Assembly: GCA_903922605.1 (NCBI GenBank)
Contig: CAIXUG010000026.1
Span: 62,001 to 126,000 of the forward strand
From: an uncultured Verrucomicrobiota bacterium
Lineage (GTDB): Bacteria > Verrucomicrobiota > Verrucomicrobiia > Limisphaerales > UBA9464
Length of the DNA stretch: 64,000 bases
Direction: 5' to 3'
The notes under the pieces are model-generated. The model did no database searches. It was not told where the DNA came from and saw nothing but the letters and a program-made list of their open reading frames with translations. The position numbers were made by a program, and so were the translations under genes. Shown in pieces: positions 1,786 through 42,344 of this stretch. The first letter of the stretch is position 1. Each line of letters starts with the position of its first letter.

Positions 1786-2580
1786 ATGAAATACACCTAC
1801 GAACAGCTCGCGAAGATGATCGACCACTCCCTCCTCCATCCCACGATGACGGATCAGGAGCTGGAGGATGGCTGCCGGCTCGCCGCGAAATACGGTGTGG
1901 CCTCAGTCTGCATCAAACCTTACGCCGTGAAGCGTGCAGCGGAACTGCTGCACGGAACTGGCGTGCTGGTCGGGGCGGTCATCGGCTTTCCGCACGGCAA
2001 CAGCGCCACGGAGTCGAAGCGCTACGAAACCCAACTGGCCTGCCAGGACGGCGCAGCCGAAATCGACATGGTCATCAACCTTGGCAAGGCGCTGGGCGGT
2101 GACTGGGATTATGTCGAACGCGATGTGAAGGCCGTGTGTGACGAAGCCGCCAAACATGGGGCCCAGGTGAAGGTCATCTTCGAGAACGACTACCTCACCA
2201 AAGGTGGCGCGGGCCTCAGCAGTGACGACTTCAAGATTCGCCTCTGCCAGCTTTGCGAACGCGCGGGCGCGGCGTGGGTGAAGACCAGCAGCGGCTACGG
2301 CTTCGTGAAGCAGCCCGACGGCAGCTACAACTATAAGGGTGCCACGGAACACGATCTGGCGCTCATGCGGGCGAATGTGTCGCCGAACGTACAGGTGAAG
2401 GCTGCTGGCGGCGTGCGCGATCTCGATGGGCTCATCAGGGTCCGCGACCTCGGCGGCTCCCGTTGCGGTGCGACCGCGACGGCGGCGATGATGGACGAGT
2501 ATCGCCGCCGCGAGGCGGCCGAACGCGCCGGTGCCGCCGTGGAGACCAAGGCGGCGGCCATCGGCGCCGGCGGTTACTGA
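1786..2580 (+). CDS. deoC: Deoxyribose-phosphate aldolase
   Basis: A 264-residue cytoplasmic TIM-barrel enzyme that splits 2-deoxyribose 5-phosphate into acetaldehyde and glyceraldehyde 3-phosphate in nucleoside salvage. Lys166 in WVKTSSGY is the Schiff-base lysine, Lys205 in VQVKAAGGV the second active-site lysine, and Asp94 in EIDMVINLG the proton-relay acid. The opening IDHSLLHPT is also typical. The last 25 or so residues are an Ala-rich tail beyond the usual end. It starts at ATG 1786 after a 103-base gap and is followed 7 bases later by the PQQ dehydrogenase gene. No other deo gene is adjacent. Confidence 0.95.
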   Translation: MKYTYEQLAKMIDHSLLHPTMTDQELEDGCRLAAKYGVASVCIKPYAVKRAAELLHGTGVLVGAVIGFPHGNSATESKRYETQLACQDGAAEIDMVINLGKALGGDWDYVERDVKAVCDEAAKHGAQVKVIFENDYLTKGGAGLSSDDFKIRLCQLCERAGAAWVKTSSGYGFVKQPDGSYNYKGATEHDLALMRANVSPNVQVKAAGGVRDLDGLIRVRDLGGSRCGATATAAMMDEYRRREAAERAGAAVETKAAAIGAGGY

Positions 2581-2587
2581 TTCCCCC

Positions 2588-4717
<2,130 letters not shown>

Positions 4718-33988: not shown

Positions 33989-34660
33989 TTACTTGAGATT
34001 TGCCGGCAGGAGCAGGATGAACTCCGCACGGCGGTTTTTCGCCCAGGCGGCCTCGTCGTGGCCCGGATCAGCGGGCTTGTCCTCGCCGTAGGGCTCGGTG
34101 GTGATGCGGTCGGCAGGTACACCGCCGTTGATCAGCTGTTCACGAACCGCCAGGGCGCGGCGCTCGCTGAGCGCACGGTTGTATTCCTCGGTACCCCGCT
34201 CGTCGGCATGGCCGGCCACCTTGAGGTTGGCCTCGGCATGCGACTTCAGGAAATCAGCCACCGTCGTAACTTTCGACGCCTCAGAGGTTTTGACCGCCGA
34301 CTTGTCGTAGTCGAAATAAACCGTAGCCCCGGCGAAGGTGGCGGCGTCTTCGATGCGGCCATCCCCAAGATTGCCCGTCGGAAGACCGGTCGAGCCGGTC
34401 GAGTTCCCTGGACCGCCCGGGGTTGACGTATCGATAGGCTGTTCAAGGCGTCCTGGGTTATTGCCCGGACCCAACGGGCGTCCACCATAATCGATGGGCG
34501 GACGATTAATAGGGCCAGTGGGCACCACAGTAACAGGTGCCGTAGCCGAGCCGACACTGCCGGGGATAGGGGTAATGTTTTTGGGCTTTTTGGAGCAGCC
34601 GGGAGCGATCGCCAGAACGGCGACAAGTGACAACAGACCAAGTTTGGCCAAAGAATTCAT
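33989..34660 (-). CDS. pal: Peptidoglycan-associated lipoprotein Pal (OmpA family)
   Basis: A 223-residue outer-membrane lipoprotein. Signal and lipobox are MNSLAKLGLLSLVAVLAIA, PGC. A Pro/Gly-rich linker spans about residues 25-105. The OmpA-like domain has VYFDYDKSAV, VAGHADERGTEEYN and the peptidoglycan-binding KNRRAEF. It anchors the outer membrane to peptidoglycan and interacts with TolB, whose gene is immediately upstream in the operon. Confidence 0.95.
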   Translation of the reverse strand: MNSLAKLGLLSLVAVLAIAPGCSKKPKNITPIPGSVGSATAPVTVVPTGPINRPPIDYGGRPLGPGNNPGRLEQPIDTSTPGGPGNSTGSTGLPTGNLGDGRIEDAATFAGATVYFDYDKSAVKTSEASKVTTVADFLKSHAEANLKVAGHADERGTEEYNRALSERRALAVREQLINGGVPADRITTEPYGEDKPADPGHDEAAWAKNRRAEFILLLPANLK

Positions 34661-34683: not shown

Positions 34684-35862
34684 CTATTTAGCCCAACTGG
34701 GTTGGGAACAGCTTCCAGAAAGACGGGCGACATCCTTGACCTGTCGCGTAGGCACGTCAAGCAGTGACAAGCGCCGGGCACCATCCCGGCCCCGGGTAAA
34801 TACGATTGTCCGCGAATTGGGAGCCCAAGAAGGGTCTTCCCCGGCGGTGATCGGCTTGGCGTCACCACCTCCCGCTCCGACAAGATAGATCGTAAATTCG
34901 CCCGAGGCCCGGGTGAAAGCGATCTGGGTGCCATCGGGCGACCAATCCGGCTCGGTGCAGTTCACCACGCCTCCCGTCGCCAGCCGTCGCAGCTCGCCCC
35001 CACTTGCCGGGATCGTATAGAGCTGGGCCCGGCCATCCTTGGTGGAAGTCAGGCAGATCGTTTTGCTGTCCGGCGACCAGCAGGGGGAGGATTCCGGCTC
35101 CGGGGTATGGGTGAGCTGGCGCAGGCCCGAGCCGTCGAGATTGGCCACCCAGAGATCCGGGCTGCCCGACTTGCTCAGGATCAGCGCCACCTTGGTGCCG
35201 TCCGGCGAGATGGCGGCGCTGGAATTCTGGCCGTTAAAGGCGAAAACGCGGGTCCGGGCGCCCGTGCTCAAATTGTGCGAGTAAACCGCCGGCCCCCCCG
35301 CCCGATAGCTGGTGTAAAAAAGCGCCAATTGACCCGGCACCCAGGCGGGCGAGGTCGCAATGGTTTTATCCTCGGTGGCCTGGAAGGCATTGGCCCCGTC
35401 GTAATCGCTCACGAAAATCTCCCCGATGTTCTCCCCAGCGGCGTTCCGGAGGCCGGATTGTGCCTTGTAGGCAATCTTGGTGCGCGCGATGCCGGGCACC
35501 CCGGTGATGGCCTTGACCACGTCATCCGAGAGCATGTGCGCCTGCGCCCGGGTGGTGCCACCCGGATAGCTGCGGGCAAAGAGGGCGTGTTTGTTGCCGG
35601 TATCCAGGAGCGTGCCCTGCACCTCAGCGCTCTTGCCCGCCTTAAGCTCGTATTGGGCCTGGGCGGGCGAAACAATTTCGAAGCCGGCCACATAGAGGTC
35701 AAATTTCAGGACCTTCTCCGCCTCATCCGCATAACCGGTGAGCGTGATCGGGATGGGCGGCTGCTTCTTGGCGGTGTTGCCGGTAACCACAATTTCCTGG
35801 GCAAACGCGGGCAGGATGGTAGCGCAGACGGCAAGCGTCTGCAGGAACGGAGGGAACTTCAT
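34684..35862 (-). CDS. tolB: Tol-Pal system beta-propeller protein TolB
   Basis: A 392-residue periplasmic protein with a signal peptide (MKFPPFLQTLAVCATILPAFAQ). Residues about 25-150 form the N-terminal alpha/beta domain, and the remainder a six-bladed propeller with FVSDYDGAN-type, ISPDGTKVALIL, CWSPDSKTICL and DWSPDGTQIAF repeats. It bridges Pal and the inner-membrane TolQRA complex. Its ATG overlaps the tolA-like stop by 4 bases. Confidence 0.95.
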   Translation of the reverse strand: MKFPPFLQTLAVCATILPAFAQEIVVTGNTAKKQPPIPITLTGYADEAEKVLKFDLYVAGFEIVSPAQAQYELKAGKSAEVQGTLLDTGNKHALFARSYPGGTTRAQAHMLSDDVVKAITGVPGIARTKIAYKAQSGLRNAAGENIGEIFVSDYDGANAFQATEDKTIATSPAWVPGQLALFYTSYRAGGPAVYSHNLSTGARTRVFAFNGQNSSAAISPDGTKVALILSKSGSPDLWVANLDGSGLRQLTHTPEPESSPCWSPDSKTICLTSTKDGRAQLYTIPASGGELRRLATGGVVNCTEPDWSPDGTQIAFTRASGEFTIYLVGAGGGDAKPITAGEDPSWAPNSRTIVFTRGRDGARRLSLLDVPTRQVKDVARLSGSCSQPSWAK

Positions 35863-36812
35863 GTGTTGGAATCTGCTTCGAGGGTAAATTTGATGCGGAA
35901 AGTGCGTTGGGCATCCGTGGTGCTGTCGGGCAGCGGACGTAGCTGCTGATAGTTGCGGATCAAACTGATCACGGAATCGTCGAGTTCACGGTAGCCGGAT
36001 TTTTCGAATTTGGAGTCAAGCAGACGGCCATCCCGGGCGATGACCACTTCCACCACGATGGACGCCGAGCGCACCGAGAGGGCCGAGGGCTTGTGCCAGT
36101 ACTGCTTGTAAAAGTCGCCGAGATAGGAGCCGTACGGCGCGTAGGCCTGGCCGCCGGGACCGGGCATTTCAATGGTGGTACTGGCGGAGGTCTGCTTGCC
36201 CACAGCCTGGGCGGCACCACCCAGGGTTTTGGCCAGCTCCGCCCGCTCCGCATTCAGCCGGGCGACCTGATTCGCCCGGTCGCGCCGGCGCTGCGCGGCT
36301 GCCTCCTGTTCCGCTGCCGCCTCACGTTCCGCCGCGTCGTCCTTGGGGTTCCGCTTCTTGGGCTCTTCGGCGACCTTGATGTCAGAGGCGGTCTTGGCCG
36401 GCTTCCTGACCGGCTTCTTATGCACGACCGGATCGGTATCTTGGGACGGATTCTCCGATTTCGGGCGGACCGGATCAGGCGCCACGGCCACCGGCTTGTT
36501 GACCTTTTCGGCGACCTTCACCGGCTTGGGCTTCGGTTCGGGCTCAGGCTCAGGCTCGGCAGGTTTGGGTTCGGTGTGCCTGGGCTCAACCGGTTGCGGC
36601 TGGACCTTGGGCAGGGTCGTGGGCGGCTGGACGTTGGGATTGCCCCCGCCGATTTTGTCACCATCCGTCAGCTTAATGTCGGGTGTGTAGAGTGTGAGGA
36701 TCGGCCCCGGCGGCTGCTCCCGGGTGAACGCCGGCGTGAACAGCAGCAAGGAAAGCAGCGTGCCGTGAATGAGCACGGAGGCCACAAGGCATCGTTGCTG
36801 CGTGGAAATCAT
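35859..36812 (-). CDS. TolA/TonB-like protein of the Tol-Pal system
   Basis: A 317-residue protein anchored by residues 10-29 (VASVLIHGTLLSLLLFTPAF). A long Pro, Glu and Lys-rich stretch (about 60-145) is followed by an Ala/Glu/Arg coiled coil (KDDAAEREAAAEQEAAAQRR). The C-terminal domain has SASIVVEVVIARDGRLLDSK and SVISLIRNYQQLRPLP, a TonB/TolA C-terminal fold. Position between tolR and tolB supports the role of TolA, the energy-transducing stalk. Overlap with tolB shows coupling. Confidence 0.88.
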   Translation of the reverse strand: MISTQQRCLVASVLIHGTLLSLLLFTPAFTREQPPGPILTLYTPDIKLTDGDKIGGGNPNVQPPTTLPKVQPQPVEPRHTEPKPAEPEPEPEPKPKPVKVAEKVNKPVAVAPDPVRPKSENPSQDTDPVVHKKPVRKPAKTASDIKVAEEPKKRNPKDDAAEREAAAEQEAAAQRRRDRANQVARLNAERAELAKTLGGAAQAVGKQTSASTTIEMPGPGGQAYAPYGSYLGDFYKQYWHKPSALSVRSASIVVEVVIARDGRLLDSKFEKSGYRELDDSVISLIRNYQQLRPLPDSTTDAQRTFRIKFTLEADSNT

Positions 36813-36814
36813 GG

Positions 36815-37237
36815 TCAGTGCCGGCTCTTTGGCTCGGTGGCCAGGTCAAAGCGCGTGATGCCATTGCGCCGGCAGATGTCCAGAATCGTCACCAGCGTCT
36901 GGGCCGGCCCGCTGCCTTCCACCCGGACGCGCACGACCAGGTTCTTGTTGGCCCGATAGGCCGCCACCAACTGCTGCTCCAGTTCCCGTTCACCGCCGAT
37001 CCGCCGGCCTTTGAACCGGAACTCACCGTTGGTGGTACCCTCGACCGTCACCACATCCGAGGCATTGGCGGTCTGCTTGGCCTCACCGCCGTTGGGCAGC
37101 TTGAGGCTGAGGCTCTGCTCCAGCAGGGGCGTGGTGATGATGAAGATGATCAGCAGCACGAACGCGAGGTCGAGCAGCGGCGTGACGTTGATCTCGTTCA
37201 GCGTCACCAGCTGGTTGCGGGAGGAGAAGCGGCGCAT
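36815..37237 (-). CDS. tolR: ExbD/TolR family proton-channel protein
   Basis: A 140-residue protein with a single N-terminal membrane helix. INVTPLLDLAFVLLIIFIIT holds the conserved Asp of the proton path. The periplasmic part is typical (GGERELEQQLVAAYRANK). It works with TolQ to energise the TolA-like protein. Its stop lies 2 bases before that start. The gene encoding the zinc-ribbon protein separates it from tolQ. Confidence 0.94.
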   Translation of the reverse strand: MRRFSSRNQLVTLNEINVTPLLDLAFVLLIIFIITTPLLEQSLSLKLPNGGEAKQTANASDVVTVEGTTNGEFRFKGRRIGGERELEQQLVAAYRANKNLVVRVRVEGSGPAQTLVTILDICRRNGITRFDLATEPKSRH

Positions 37238-37249
37238 GGTCGGGGCGGG

Positions 37250-37993
37250 TTACCAGAGACGCGGCAGGCGCACGCCGGAAAGCCAGACGGCCAGCCCAAA
37301 CAGCAGCAGCAGGCCCACCAGCGCGAGGGCGAAATAGAGCAGGTTCACCGGCTTGGGCTCGGCGCCGTCCTTCCAGCGCTCCTGCACGGTTCGATGCAGC
37401 TTGCGCTGGCACCGCTCACAGCGCGAATGAACCCGGGCGTTGCGGTGATTGCACTTGGTGCAGAAGACAAACAGGTGGGCACCGCAAGATTCGCACAGGT
37501 CGATGCCGTGCGGGTTCAGGTGCTCGCATTTCACACAGAGCACGCCCGGACCCATCGGTCCGTCCTCCCGGGGTGCCGGCAGGGGCTGCTGTAACTGGCG
37601 GGGATGGCACTTTTCGCAGTGGTCCAGCACGCACGGATTCAGGTGCCCACACCTCGGACAGGGGGCAAAGAGCGCCGCCTGGCAGGTCTCACATTTTTCC
37701 AGTCCCAGCGGGTTCAGATGCTCGCATTTCGCGCAAAGGACGCCTTGTCCTCGCGGTCCGGATTCGTGGTTTTCCGGCGGGGCCACGGGGATCTGCCGCC
37801 GCTTGCATTCCACGCAGTGGTCCAACACCGCCGGGTTCCGGTGCCCGCACGTCGGACAGGAGACGTAAAGCGGTGCCTGGCAGGTCTCGCATTGCTCGAT
37901 GCCCAAGGGGTTCAGGTGCTCGCACTTGGCGCAGAGCACGCCCCTGCCTTGGCGCTTTACGGCATCATCCGCTGCTGGGGTCAGTTCGCTCAT
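37250..37993 (-). CDS. Tail-anchored protein with three tandem double zinc ribbons, inside the tol operon
   Basis: A 247-residue protein of no family I can name. It has twelve CxxC pairs, at 21/24, 35/38, 46/49, 60/63, 87/90, 101/104, 112/115, 126/129, 153/156, 167/170, 178/181 and 192/195. They form three repeats of exactly 66 residues, each holding two zinc ribbons (CAKCEHLNPLGIEQCETC, then CPTCGHRNPAVLDHCVEC). A single membrane helix at about 217-239 ends the protein, so the ribbons should face the cytoplasm. It lies 3 bases after tolQ and 12 before tolR. A regulatory or protein-binding role with the motor is inferred from position only. Confidence 0.8.
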   Translation of the reverse strand: MSELTPAADDAVKRQGRGVLCAKCEHLNPLGIEQCETCQAPLYVSCPTCGHRNPAVLDHCVECKRRQIPVAPPENHESGPRGQGVLCAKCEHLNPLGLEKCETCQAALFAPCPRCGHLNPCVLDHCEKCHPRQLQQPLPAPREDGPMGPGVLCVKCEHLNPHGIDLCESCGAHLFVFCTKCNHRNARVHSRCERCQRKLHRTVQERWKDGAEPKPVNLLYFALALVGLLLLFGLAVWLSGVRLPRLW

Positions 37994-37996
37994 CGG

Positions 37997-38731
37997 TTAC
38001 TCGTCGTCTTTCAGGAATTCCGTCTCCATGCGGGACGCCAGACTCTGGGCAAAGTTGTCCAGCTCAACGGTCAGCACGCGCAGGTTGTGAACCAGCCAGT
38101 TATAGCCGAACATGGAGGGAATCGCCACCAGCAAACCGGCCACGGTGGTGATCAGGGCGGCGGCCACACCGGGTGCCATCGCGGCCAGGTCGGCGCGGTT
38201 GCCCGCCTGGGCGGCCATGGCGACACCGCCGAAGGCGTCCATCACGCCCCAGACCGTGCCCAGCAGGCCGAGGAACGGCGCACCGCTTACGGCGGCCGCC
38301 AGGAGCACGAGACCGGATTCCAGTTTCAGGGCTTCCCGGGCCACCGCCCCTTCCAAGGAGCGTTTCACGTGCTCCATCGTCTTGATGGAGACATGTGTTT
38401 TGCGGCCACCCTCCGCATTCCGCAAACGGCCTTCCAGGTCGGTGCAGCCATCCTGATAGACGGCGAACAGCGGGCAGCCATCCACGGGCAGCTTGCGGTC
38501 GTAGATGCCGAGCACGGACTTCTGCCCGCGGTACTCCGATTCGAAGTAGTGGTTCAGGCGCTTGGCCCGGCGCATCTGCTGCGCCTTGGTCAACATCACC
38601 GCCCACGCGAAAATGGAGAAAATTGCCAGGACAAGGATGATGACCTTGGCCTCGGGGGTGGCCTTGTCCCAGACATAGCTGAGCTTCATGCCACTATCAC
38701 CAGTGGCGAAAAGCCCGGACAACAGGTTCAT
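37997..38731 (-). CDS. tolQ: MotA/TolQ/ExbB proton-channel family protein
   Basis: A 244-residue protein with three membrane helices (near residues 28-48, 140-165 and 185-207). The conserved TolQ core is SGAPFLGLLGTVWGVMDAF and PGVAAALITTVAGLLVAIPS. With TolR it forms the proton-driven motor that powers Tol-Pal during cell constriction. It is the first gene of the minus-strand operon, behind a promoter at 38773-38801. Confidence 0.95.
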   Translation of the reverse strand: MNLLSGLFATGDSGMKLSYVWDKATPEAKVIILVLAIFSIFAWAVMLTKAQQMRRAKRLNHYFESEYRGQKSVLGIYDRKLPVDGCPLFAVYQDGCTDLEGRLRNAEGGRKTHVSIKTMEHVKRSLEGAVAREALKLESGLVLLAAAVSGAPFLGLLGTVWGVMDAFGGVAMAAQAGNRADLAAMAPGVAAALITTVAGLLVAIPSMFGYNWLVHNLRVLTVELDNFAQSLASRMETEFLKDDE

Positions 38732-38855: not shown

Positions 38856-39386
38856 TCAATGTCCCCGGTTCCGCCGATGAAACCGCAGGAACTCGCGGAG
38901 CTGCCCGGGATGAAGCCGCCAGAACTCCACCAACGACGCAAAGGCCGCCAGCGTGGCCGGATTCAGGTGGTGCTCGATGTCCTCGACTTCGGCCGCGATC
39001 GTGTCGGCCTCCAATCCCAGCTGCCCCAGCAGCGCGGTGAGCGTTTGGTGCCGCTCCTTGATGTGCCTTGCCACCGCGCGTCCCTCCGTCGTGAGCGTGA
39101 ATCCTCGGTAGCGCTCGTAGTTCACGAAGCCACGCGCCGCCAGCCGCCGGACCATGTTCGACACCGTGGAACGTGTCAGCCCCAGCGCCTCGGCAATGTC
39201 GGTGACGCGCGCATAGCCCTTGGCCTCCACGAGGTCGTGGATGCGTTCCAGATGGTCCTCGGTGGACTCGGAGCGGCGCACGTCCTGGGCACGCGGTCGG
39301 GCGGCGGTTGGCACACGCGGTTGGTAGCAGCGGCCCCTGCCGCCGCCAAGCCCGTGATTTTGGGCAAGAACAAATGTTTTAGGCAC
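38856..39386 (-). CDS. mntR: DtxR/MntR-family manganese-responsive transcriptional regulator
   Basis: Up to 176 residues. The DNA-binding winged helix is STEDHLERIHDLVEAKGYAR, then DIAEALGLTRSTVSNMVRRL; the metal-binding half includes EGRAVARHIKERHQTL and EDIEHHLNPATLAAF. The GTG start at 39386 adds a basic tail; an inner GTG at 39281 gives about 141 residues, closer to MntR. It is divergent from a porin-mntH-uspA set, so it probably represses manganese uptake when the metal is plentiful. Confidence 0.9.
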   Translation of the reverse strand: MPKTFVLAQNHGLGGGRGRCYQPRVPTAARPRAQDVRRSESTEDHLERIHDLVEAKGYARVTDIAEALGLTRSTVSNMVRRLAARGFVNYERYRGFTLTTEGRAVARHIKERHQTLTALLGQLGLEADTIAAEVEDIEHHLNPATLAAFASLVEFWRLHPGQLREFLRFHRRNRGH

Positions 39387-39624: not shown

Positions 39625-40974
39625 ATGCGACAGACTGAACAAATTGCGGGCCTGGTTGGCGGGATGATCGTCTGGGCCACCGCCGCCGCTGCGGAGACGA
39701 CCAACTCTCCTGCCGCCACCGAGCCGCCGGAAGCACCGTGGAACTGGCACACCCAGGCCACGGTGGTCGCCGAGGGGAACACCCACTTCACCGCGCCGTA
39801 CGAAGGAACACGGAGCCTGCCGGATGTGAACTCGGTGCGCGAAACGGTCTCGTTCGACCTCGTCGGCGGGGTGCGGCTGTGGAGCGGGGCGGCGGCGTTT
39901 GCGGACGCGCTCGTATGGCAGGGCTTCGGCCTGGGCAACGCGGTGGGACTGGAGGCCTTTCCCAACGGCGAGGCGTTCAAGCTCGGTACCAAGCTCCCCA
40001 ACGTCACCATGGCGCGGGTGTTTCTGCGGCAGAGCTTCGGCCTCGGCGGCGAGCAGGAACAGGTGGAGGACGACATGTTCGAACTCGCCGGCAAACGCGA
40101 CGTTTCACGGCTCACCTTCACGGTCGGCAAACTCAGCGCGAAGGACCTCTTCGACGGCAACGCCTACGCGAACGATCCGCGCACGCAGTTCCTCGACTGG
40201 TCGCTGATGGCCAACAATGCGTGGGATTTTCCGGCGGATTCTCTCGGCTACATGACGGGCGCGACGGTGGAGCTGAACCAGCGCCGCTGGGCCCTGCGCT
40301 ACGGCTTCTTCCAGACCCCGCGCCGCTTGAACGGCATGGCGCTCGATCCCGCCTTCCTGCAGGCCTGGGGCATGGTCACGGAATTCGAGTGGCGCTACGC
40401 GCTCGGCGAGCGGCCCGGCTCCGTGCGGGTGCTAGGCTACCTGAACCGCGCCCACATGGGAGCGTACGGCACAGCGGTCGCCACGGCCATTGCGACGGGC
40501 ATTTATCCGGCGGATGCCACCGTGACGAATGGCGAACACCGCTACAAGTTCGGCACCGGCCTGAGCTGGGATCAGGGGCTGACCAAAAATCTCGGCGTGT
40601 TCGGCCGGCTCGGCTGGAGCGACGGACGCACCGAGTCGTGGACTTTCAACGACGTGGATGAGACGGCCACCGCCGGCTTCAGCCTGCGCGGTGGCGGCTG
40701 GGGCCGGCCGGACGACACGTTCGCCGTGGGTGGCGGATTCAATGGCATCTCAAAGGTTCACCAGGACTATCTCGCGGCGGGCGGCATCGGAATCCTTGCG
40801 GGCGACGGCGCGCTGAACTACGGCTGGGAACAGTTTTTCGAGACCTACTACGACTGCGCGGTCACGCACTGGCTGCACACCAGCGCGCACTACGAGTTTG
40901 TCGCCAATCCCGCGTACAACCGCGATCGCGGCCCGGTGCACGTGTTCGGCCTGCGGGCCCACGTGGAGTTTTGA
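39625..40974 (+). CDS. OprB-like outer-membrane porin in a manganese locus
   Basis: A 449-residue exported beta-barrel. Signal peptide is [16 protein letters not shown]. Motifs of the carbohydrate-selective porin OprB family include [31 protein letters not shown] and [18 protein letters not shown]; the protein ends with Phe (LRAHVEF), as barrels do. Its stop codon overlaps the mntH start region, and mntR is divergent upstream. It may be the outer-membrane entry path for manganese, comparable to MnoP in Bradyrhizobium; this is inference. Confidence 0.85.
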
Positions 40975-40979
40975 AGTTC

Positions 40980-42344
40980 ATGAAAGACCGTCCTCCCATC
41001 CCGGTTGCGGTCGATCCCTCGCCCGGGGCCTGGCACCAGGAATCAGCGCAAAAGAGCCTCGCCGAAGTGCATGGCACCATTCCGGTGCCCAAGAATTTCA
41101 GCTTCTGGCGGAAGCTGCTGGCCTTCTCCGGCCCGGGCTATCTGGTGGCGGTGGGCTACATGGACCCGGGCAACTGGGCCACCGACCTCGCGGGTGGCTC
41201 GCAGTTCGGCTACTCGCTCCTGAGCGTCATCCTCCTCTCCAACCTGATGGCGATCCTGCTCCAGTCGCTCTGCGCGAAGCTGGGCATCGTCACGGAACGC
41301 GACCTCGCGCAGGCCTGTCGGGACCATTATTCGAAGCCCGTGACGGTCGTGCTCTGGCTGATGTGCGAGATCGCCATCTGCGCGTGCGACCTCGCGGAAG
41401 TCATCGGCTCGGCCATCGCGCTGAACCTGCTCTTCAAGATTCCGCTGGTCTGGGGCGTGTGCCTGACCGCGCTCGACGTGCTGGCGGTGATGTACCTGCA
41501 AAACCGGGGCTTCCGCTACATCGAGGCACTGGTGGTCACGCTCATCCTGACTATCGGAGGCTGCTTCCTCGCGGAAATCATCTTTTCCCGGCCGGACGTC
41601 GTCGCCGTGCTGGGCGGGTTCGTGCCTAAGTTCGAGATCATCCGGAACCCCGCGATGCTGTATGTCGCCATCGGCATCCTCGGGGCGACGGTGATGCCGC
41701 ATAACCTCTACCTGCACTCCAGCATCGTGCAGACGCGCAAGTACGAGCCGACCTCCGAAGGCCGGCGCGAGGCCATCAAGTTCGCCACCATCGACTCGAC
41801 GCTGGCCCTGATGTTCGCGCTGTTCATCAATGCCGCCATCCTCATCGTGGCCGCGGCCACGTTTCATGGCACGTCGCACAACGTCGCCGAGATCCAGGAC
41901 GCACATCAGCTGCTCTCGCCCATGCTCGGGGTCGGCCTCGCGAGCACGCTCTTCGCGGTGGCGTTGCTCGCTTCCGGCCAGAACTCGACGCTGACCGGCA
42001 CGCTCGCCGGCCAGATTGTGATGGAGGGCTTTCTGAACCTCCGCCTGCGCCCCTGGCTGCGCCGGCTCATCACGCGGTTGCTGGCCATCGTGCCGGCGGT
42101 GGTCGTCACTGCGCTCTACGGGGAAAAAGGCACCAACGATCTGCTCATCTTCAGCCAGGTGGTGCTCAGCCTGCAGCTTTCCTTCGCCGTGATCCCGCTG
42201 ATCCTCTTCACGAGCAGCCGCAAAAAGATGGGTGAGTTCGTCAACCCGCTGTGGATAAAGACCCTCGCCTGGATCACCGCCGGCATCATCGTGGCGCTGA
42301 ATGTGAAATACCTTTTCGACAAGGCTGTCGAGTGGGTGAAGTAA
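40980..42344 (+). CDS. mntH: Nramp-family manganese/divalent metal transporter
   Basis: A 454-residue inner-membrane protein, if started at ATG 40980; a TTG at 40971 would overlap the porin stop and add three residues. Helix 1 has the metal-binding DPGN in [11 protein letters not shown], and helix 6 the MPH in [14 protein letters not shown], both intact. It imports Mn(II) with protons. A UspA-type gene follows 19 bases later. Confidence 0.95.

Follow-up and report, generated by a model that had tools for sequence, protein, structure and literature searches.

A predicted membrane-anchored zinc-ribbon protein encoded in the tolQ-tolR gap of a Verrucomicrobiota order

A zinc-ribbon gene within the tol-pal operon

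The window analysed here, a 64,000-nucleotide stretch of DNA from an uncultured Verrucomicrobiota bacterium, encodes on its minus strand a set of Tol-Pal proteins in the gene order tolQ-[ZnR]-tolR-tolA-tolB-pal, where ZnR denotes a zinc-ribbon protein with a predicted membrane helix at its C-terminus. The genes, and the parts of the ZnR gene, are located as follows.

37997..38731, minus strand: tolQ (PF01618, 1.8e-28; TIGR02796, 2.3e-44, below cut-off)
37250..37993, minus strand: ZnR gene, three double zinc ribbons and a C-terminal membrane helix, 247 aa (PF12773 and structure model)
37805..37933, minus strand: unit 1, residues 21-63, two C-x2-C-x3-N-x6-C-x2-C fingers (converted from residue numbers)
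37607..37735, minus strand: unit 2, residues 87-129, two fingers (converted from residue numbers)
37409..37537, minus strand: unit 3, residues 153-195, two fingers (converted from residue numbers)
37343..37408, minus strand: basic linker from the last finger to the membrane helix, carrying the positive-inside signal (sequence and charge test)
37277..37342, minus strand: predicted membrane helix at the C-terminus (residues 218-239), with an 8-residue tail after it that ends in LPRLW (sequence and model)
36815..37237, minus strand: tolR (PF02472, 1.2e-23; TIGR02801, 3.9e-19, below cut-off)
35859..36812, minus strand: tolA-like transducer (PF13103, 2.1e-9; TIGR02794, 6.1e-16, 58.6 bits against a cut-off of 59.45)
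34684..35862, minus strand: tolB (TIGR02800, 1.2e-74, below cut-off)
33989..34660, minus strand: pal (PF00691, 5.3e-21; TIGR02802, 6.6e-34, below cut-off)

The names of the five tol-pal genes were assigned from Pfam and NCBIfam profiles; none of the five reaches the curated cut-off of its best-scoring NCBIfam equivalog. ZnR has an ATG start codon and is separated by 3 nt from tolQ and by 12 nt from tolR. The original prediction had described a tail-anchored zinc-ribbon protein with twelve CxxC motifs at this position, with these same gaps on either side; the coordinates agree, and the open reading frame, a match to the double zinc ribbon (DZR) profile and the predicted terminal helix bear the description out. 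The family profile gave three matches in the genome of the window, all within the ZnR gene, and thus no second copy. A scan for promoters and terminators returned no site on the minus strand.

Directly upstream of tolQ lies a gene for a DtxR/MntR-type metal regulator (38859-39386, minus strand), and an OprB porin gene and an NRAMP transporter gene (39628-42341, plus strand) are divergent. The same genome contains a TolQ-like match with 45% identity (G000:C30:42386-43048) inside a 755-residue open frame, perhaps a fusion or merely a long frame.

Fingers, fold and predicted topology

The twelve CxxC motifs of the window protein are arranged in three units with two zinc fingers each, at residues 21-38, 46-63, 87-104, 112-129, 153-170 and 178-195, and all six fingers fit the pattern C-x2-C-x3-N-x6-C-x2-C. 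The period of the units is exactly 198 nt, or 66 residues, as had been claimed, but the copies are not the exact repeats that were announced with it, since they have diverged to DNA identities of 62% and 71% against the reference copy; at the protein level, units 1 and 2 share an identity of 0.68. The usual form of the family is a protein of about 100-145 residues with a single double zinc ribbon, that is, two C-x2-C-x10-C-x2-C fingers, laid out as a variable N-terminus, the two fingers, a basic linker, one C-terminal helix and a short tail. Across the 72 loci in which a ZnR gene occupies the tolQ-tolR gap (described below), the number of CxxC motifs is always 4, 12 or 32, and the last unit keeps a 10/7/10 spacing (10-residue loops, 7-residue joint) in 71. 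The asparagine-containing pattern is present in the first finger of the last unit in 67 of these loci, in the second in 51 and in both in 46.

The C-terminal hydrophobic stretch passes the Kyte-Doolittle test in 68 of the 72 loci and fails in four. In those 68 the mean net charge is +6.7 before the helix and +0.75 after it, with the higher value before the helix in 64, and the chain that follows the best 19-residue hydrophobic window has a median length of 8 residues in the gap family; a C-terminal LPRLW is frequent among members of family f1. For the two loci with two ZnR genes each, the first gene was used in the helix, charge and finger-spacing tests. By the positive-inside rule, these flanks predict that the fingers face the cytoplasm, as was originally proposed, and the family is accordingly predicted, from sequence, to be tail-anchored with its ribbons toward the cytoplasm.

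Pfam DZR (PF12773) matches the window protein with an E-value of 1.6e-14 and 54.2 bits, above the curated cut-off of 27.3, and each unit is one double zinc ribbon; the single-unit member L006 scores 24.3 bits, slightly under the cut-off. At E<=0.001 the same profile matches 43 of 45 single-unit members, whereas PF00641 matches only eight and the TcaA profile (3.2e-4) and PF18073 (7.2e-4) one each. PF12773 names the domain; the architecture of ZnR and its site in the tol operon are not covered by it. Among solved structures, the best sequence match is to a chain of Double zinc ribbon and ankyrin repeat-containing protein 1 (E 6.6e-6). AlphaFold2 models the fingers (block means 91-95) and helix (94 and 88) of a single-unit member with confidence, while the model of the window protein has low confidence at the N-terminus and between the units. 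With both models, Foldseek returned nothing at E<=0.001 and nothing that reached E 0.05. The best E-values (0.08-0.2) belonged to GATOR2, IFT-A, PolD and RING entries, with poor rmsd, and the closest-fitting short overlaps were with RanBP2/NZF fingers (25-29 columns at about 1 A, with probabilities of up to 0.98), among them the TAB3 NZF (TM by target length 0.85). The ribosomal protein eL40 gave weak matches as well as fold overlaps.

ZnR has finger spacing and short fold overlaps in common with both RanBP2/NZF fingers and eL40. The RanBP2-type signature is C-x2-C-x3-N-x6-C-x2-C with a tryptophan two positions before the first cysteine; this tryptophan is missing from all six window fingers, which have V or A there. 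LapB/YciM proteins combine an N-terminal helix with TPR repeats and a C-terminal metal domain, a layout different from that of ZnR, whose helix is C-terminal and for which Pfam gave no TPR match in the window protein or the 45 single-unit members. Searches with the window protein against PHROGs, phage and plasmid sequences gave no matches. A cytoplasmic C-x2-C-x10-C-x2-C zinc motif preceding a membrane helix is described for Lactococcus Llmg_0524 and Llmg_0526 and Staphylococcus aureus TcaA, and in two Lactococcus membrane proteins with this finger spacing the zinc is held very stably (PMC4628341). ZnR, by prediction, resembles TcaA and Llmg_0526 in having an N-terminal cytoplasmic zinc motif followed by one membrane helix. 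These proteins, however, come from Gram-positive bacteria, and the Llmg proteins have one finger, whereas the fingers of ZnR are paired, its tail is short and its gene belongs to a tol operon; TcaA continues into a long extracellular C-terminal chain where ZnR has a median of 8 residues.

Occurrence and evolution in the order

ZnR lies in the tolQ-tolR gap of 72 of 95 non-redundant orthologous pairs from the order, in 15 family codes, which excludes confinement to a single strain, a possibility raised with the original prediction; because the loci were collected mainly via ZnR hits, this proportion is not a prevalence. The 95 pairs are what is left of 101 after six ExbB-like paralogue rows without ZnR (L183, L186-L190) were dropped. 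Contig-end loci with tolQ or tolR cut off lie outside the 101, unless the remaining tolQ sufficed to match, and a record labelled Akkermansiaceae (L098), which sits in family f1 on the tree, was not counted among the family groups. Those loci that carry names come from Verrucomicrobia MAGs, one of them a Pedosphaera sp., and the order is therefore probably the one to which Pedosphaera belongs. Two loci of family f106 (L124, L125) contain two tandem ZnR genes between tolQ and tolR. In 44 of the 72 copies ZnR starts within the last 4-14 nt of tolQ, under a rule that takes the first start codon found from 16 nt short of the tolQ end onward and to which larger overlaps are therefore invisible; this overlap points to translational coupling.

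Of 58 genomes drawn as relatives, 32 match the window protein. Loci were obtained for thirty of the matches; tolR adjoins the gene in 29 of them, and tolQ is also present upstream in 28. One locus (L004) begins inside the ZnR gene at a contig end, with tolR present, and at the thirtieth (L030) neither tolQ nor tolR was found. In 245 genomes of the order the family profile (E<=0.001) matches 88, weak generic ribbons counted, and leaves 157 without a match. A scan of contigs with a closer alignment (A2) yielded 11 loci, of which two labelled Akkermansia muciniphila were taken as mislabelled MAGs. In a sample of the phylum 82 of 387 genomes match, the best E-value outside the genome of the window being 1.5e-11. 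Near 29 loci (L032-L060, with flanks of about 1.5 kb) from the 81 matching genomes besides that of the window there was no TolQ match and one weak TolR match, and the phylum-wide matches were set aside as generic double zinc ribbons.

Stand-alone double-zinc-ribbon relatives of similar layout also occur in the order, away from tolQ and tolR (L088, L101-L106, L108, L110, L111, L113, L115-L121, L123, L126, L133, L135, L139, L144, L157 and L159; in L103 at 2410-3153), so the layout of ZnR is not Tol-specific. Most of the stand-alone open reading frames have a hydrophobic stretch, and two genomes (G456 and G498) contain three copies each. When the neighbourhoods of 31 ZnR-match loci outside tolQ-tolR gaps were clustered, one neighbour was common to six loci; it has, by eye, a pseudopilin-like N-terminal motif and was taken as incidental.

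The gene is absent from other members of the order. tolQ was sought in 25 of the 26 relatives without a match (G049 was excluded), and 22 of them have a full-length tolQ (L161-L182), one has a partial tolQ at a contig start (L184) and two (G013, G031) have tolQ paralogues only. The family profile matched none of these 23 tolQ loci, full and partial, and in none of them does a listed open reading frame of at least 60 aa after tolQ contain a CxxC motif. At two ZnR-less loci (L175 in G043, L176 in G056) the tolQ-tolR gap holds an open reading frame of the 23S-rRNA-IVP type, called by the PF05635 profile for L176 and by similarity to L176 for L175. ZnR is missing from all sampled members of genera g2 (three) and g9 (four). 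Since the 22 full tolQ loci of no-match genomes and 157 of 245 genomes are without it, ZnR is dispensable. Outside the order, ZnR was found in none of the best 29 tolQ-like/tolR-like pairs of the 84 genomes with a match, and no more than 99 nt separate the tolQ stop codon from the beginning of the TolR domain in these 29, in keeping with the original statement that standard Tol operons have no such gene. We know of no textbook Tol-Pal system with a membrane-anchored zinc-finger gene. In open-access journal papers, at the level of titles and abstract openings, no description of a zinc-ribbon gene between tolQ and tolR was found; the word zinc is absent from the main text of a 2025 survey of tol-pal operons (PMC12204202), and another paper mentions Tol-Pal once (PMC5147048).

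ZnR evolves under purifying selection. Compared with its closest relative (G004), the window gene has a dN/dS of 0.118, next to 0.061 for TolQ and 0.16 for TolR from the same two genomes; nine of ten chosen ZnR pairs have values of 0.105-0.223, and one pair of very low divergence (L149/L153) has 0.897. This constraint, together with the recurrence of the same gene in many relatives, argues against chance and suggests, at the level of sequence, that ZnR is a real, conserved extra part of the Tol operon. On the TolQ+TolR tree the presence of ZnR requires 10 changes, as against 20.7 when shuffled (none of 500 shuffles as low), and the starred branches force at least four. ZnR distances correlate with those of the TolQR tree (Mantel rho 0.335, 0 of 999 permutations), which is no proof of contact because vertical inheritance predicts the same. 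The TolQ column that best tracks ZnR, in the C-terminal VELDNF stretch of TolQ, has glutamate in 71 of 72 loci with ZnR and 14 of 23 without, and over random pairings the trend runs mostly in one direction; with four well-supported independent pairs, no TolQ or TolR column reaches significance, so the glutamate is a lead and not a result.

The number of units varies within the genus of the window between one, three and eight. Two congeners (L003, L005) have eight units with 32 CxxC motifs, and a third (L004), truncated where its contig stops, has at least six; genus g3 likewise contains three-unit members and one single-unit member. After their counterparts in G004, window units 1 and 2 are nearest to each other (0.68) and unit 3 is nearest to the one unit that congeners G003 and G002 possess (0.68 and 0.64). 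By these pairwise identities, units 1 and 2 are probably additions at the front, and the three units of the window and the eight of its two congeners look, from sequence, like later expansions.

Possible roles beside the TolQR motor

The position of ZnR, its overlap with tolQ in 44 of 72 copies, the purifying selection and the predicted topology argue for a part that is made with the motor. Many RanBP2/NZF fingers bind proteins, and some RanBP2-like fingers bind RNA. Given the type of finger and the freely changing number of units, an adaptor or scaffold fits better than a tuned sensor, and we tentatively favour the reading that ZnR is a membrane-anchored, cytoplasm-facing accessory adaptor that serves the TolQR motor in this order of Verrucomicrobiota. 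Its helix would sit with or beside TolQR in the inner membrane, the cytoplasmic string of fingers, two per unit, would act as a protein-binding adaptor, and ZnR would recruit to the motor a partner that is cytosolic or linked to division, or would tie motor units together, its zinc being structural and not sensed. More speculatively, ZnR could be a dedicated input module that binds TolQR and makes the activity or location of the motor depend on a cytosolic partner; the number of units would then tune reach or avidity.

The original prediction had also envisaged a sensor of metal state, and a metal or redox sensor, in which loss of zinc or oxidation of cysteines in the ribbons would alter TolQR activity, might be expected of a cysteine-rich, predicted cytoplasmic part beside a proton motor, with an MntR-type gene upstream of tolQ and a divergent NRAMP gene. 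MntR homologues do lie upstream of tolQ at other loci with ZnR (L002, L006, L008, L012, L013), but also at loci without it (L161, L162, L164), and none was found within about 3 kb upstream in seven ZnR loci (L093, L095-L100); metal sensing therefore gains little from these genes, and the link between MntR and ZnR was set aside. A unit number of one, three or eight among congeners also speaks against this role, as do the Lactococcus C-x2-C-x10-C-x2-C proteins, which kept their zinc at 37 C and in the presence of oxidants (PMC4628341). We regard a metal or redox sensor as unlikely; of the first interpretation, what stands is the extra conserved Tol-operon gene with its tail anchor and predicted cytoplasmic ribbons.

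A factor made between TolQ and TolR that builds or protects the complex, with no lasting signalling role, would explain the fixed site between both subunit genes and the overlap with tolQ, yet eight double ribbons are not obviously required for such a task and the lineages without ZnR retain tolQ and tolR; we consider such a factor improbable. The asparagine-containing pattern in all six window fingers, the weak eL40 matches and the fold overlaps with RanBP2-type fingers and eL40 would also suit a membrane-bound RNA-binding regulator, acting for example on tol mRNA or on ribosomes; the same pattern is nevertheless common to protein-binding fingers and the window fingers lack the RanBP2 tryptophan, and we consider RNA binding very unlikely. 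There is likewise little probability that ZnR is a tolerated passenger whose function has nothing to do with Tol, a double-zinc-ribbon duplicate that reached fixation in the gap by chance. Stand-alone relatives, patchy presence between genera and the unrelated 23S-rRNA-IVP type frame in the same gap of two genomes are what such a passenger would lead one to expect. Against it stand the retention of one site in 15 family groups under purifying selection, the lack of phage or plasmid matches to the window protein and the agreement of ZnR distances with the TolQR tree, though a vertically inherited passenger would show the last as well.

Further products of tol-pal operons, beyond those of tolQRA, tolB and pal, are known in YbgC, a cytoplasmic acyl-thioesterase, and CpoB, a periplasmic TPR protein; ZnR resembles them in this respect, although neither is a zinc-ribbon protein, and YbgC is the sole product of the Escherichia coli operon described as cytoplasmic (PMC12204202). 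Tol-Pal is an envelope machine that has been studied widely. If ZnR is an adaptor of the TolQR motor, a conserved cytoplasm-facing part encoded in the motor operon would offer a handle on where and when the motor runs. The pairs of genomes with and without the gene within one family, and the series of one, three and eight units within one genus, make this idea directly testable.
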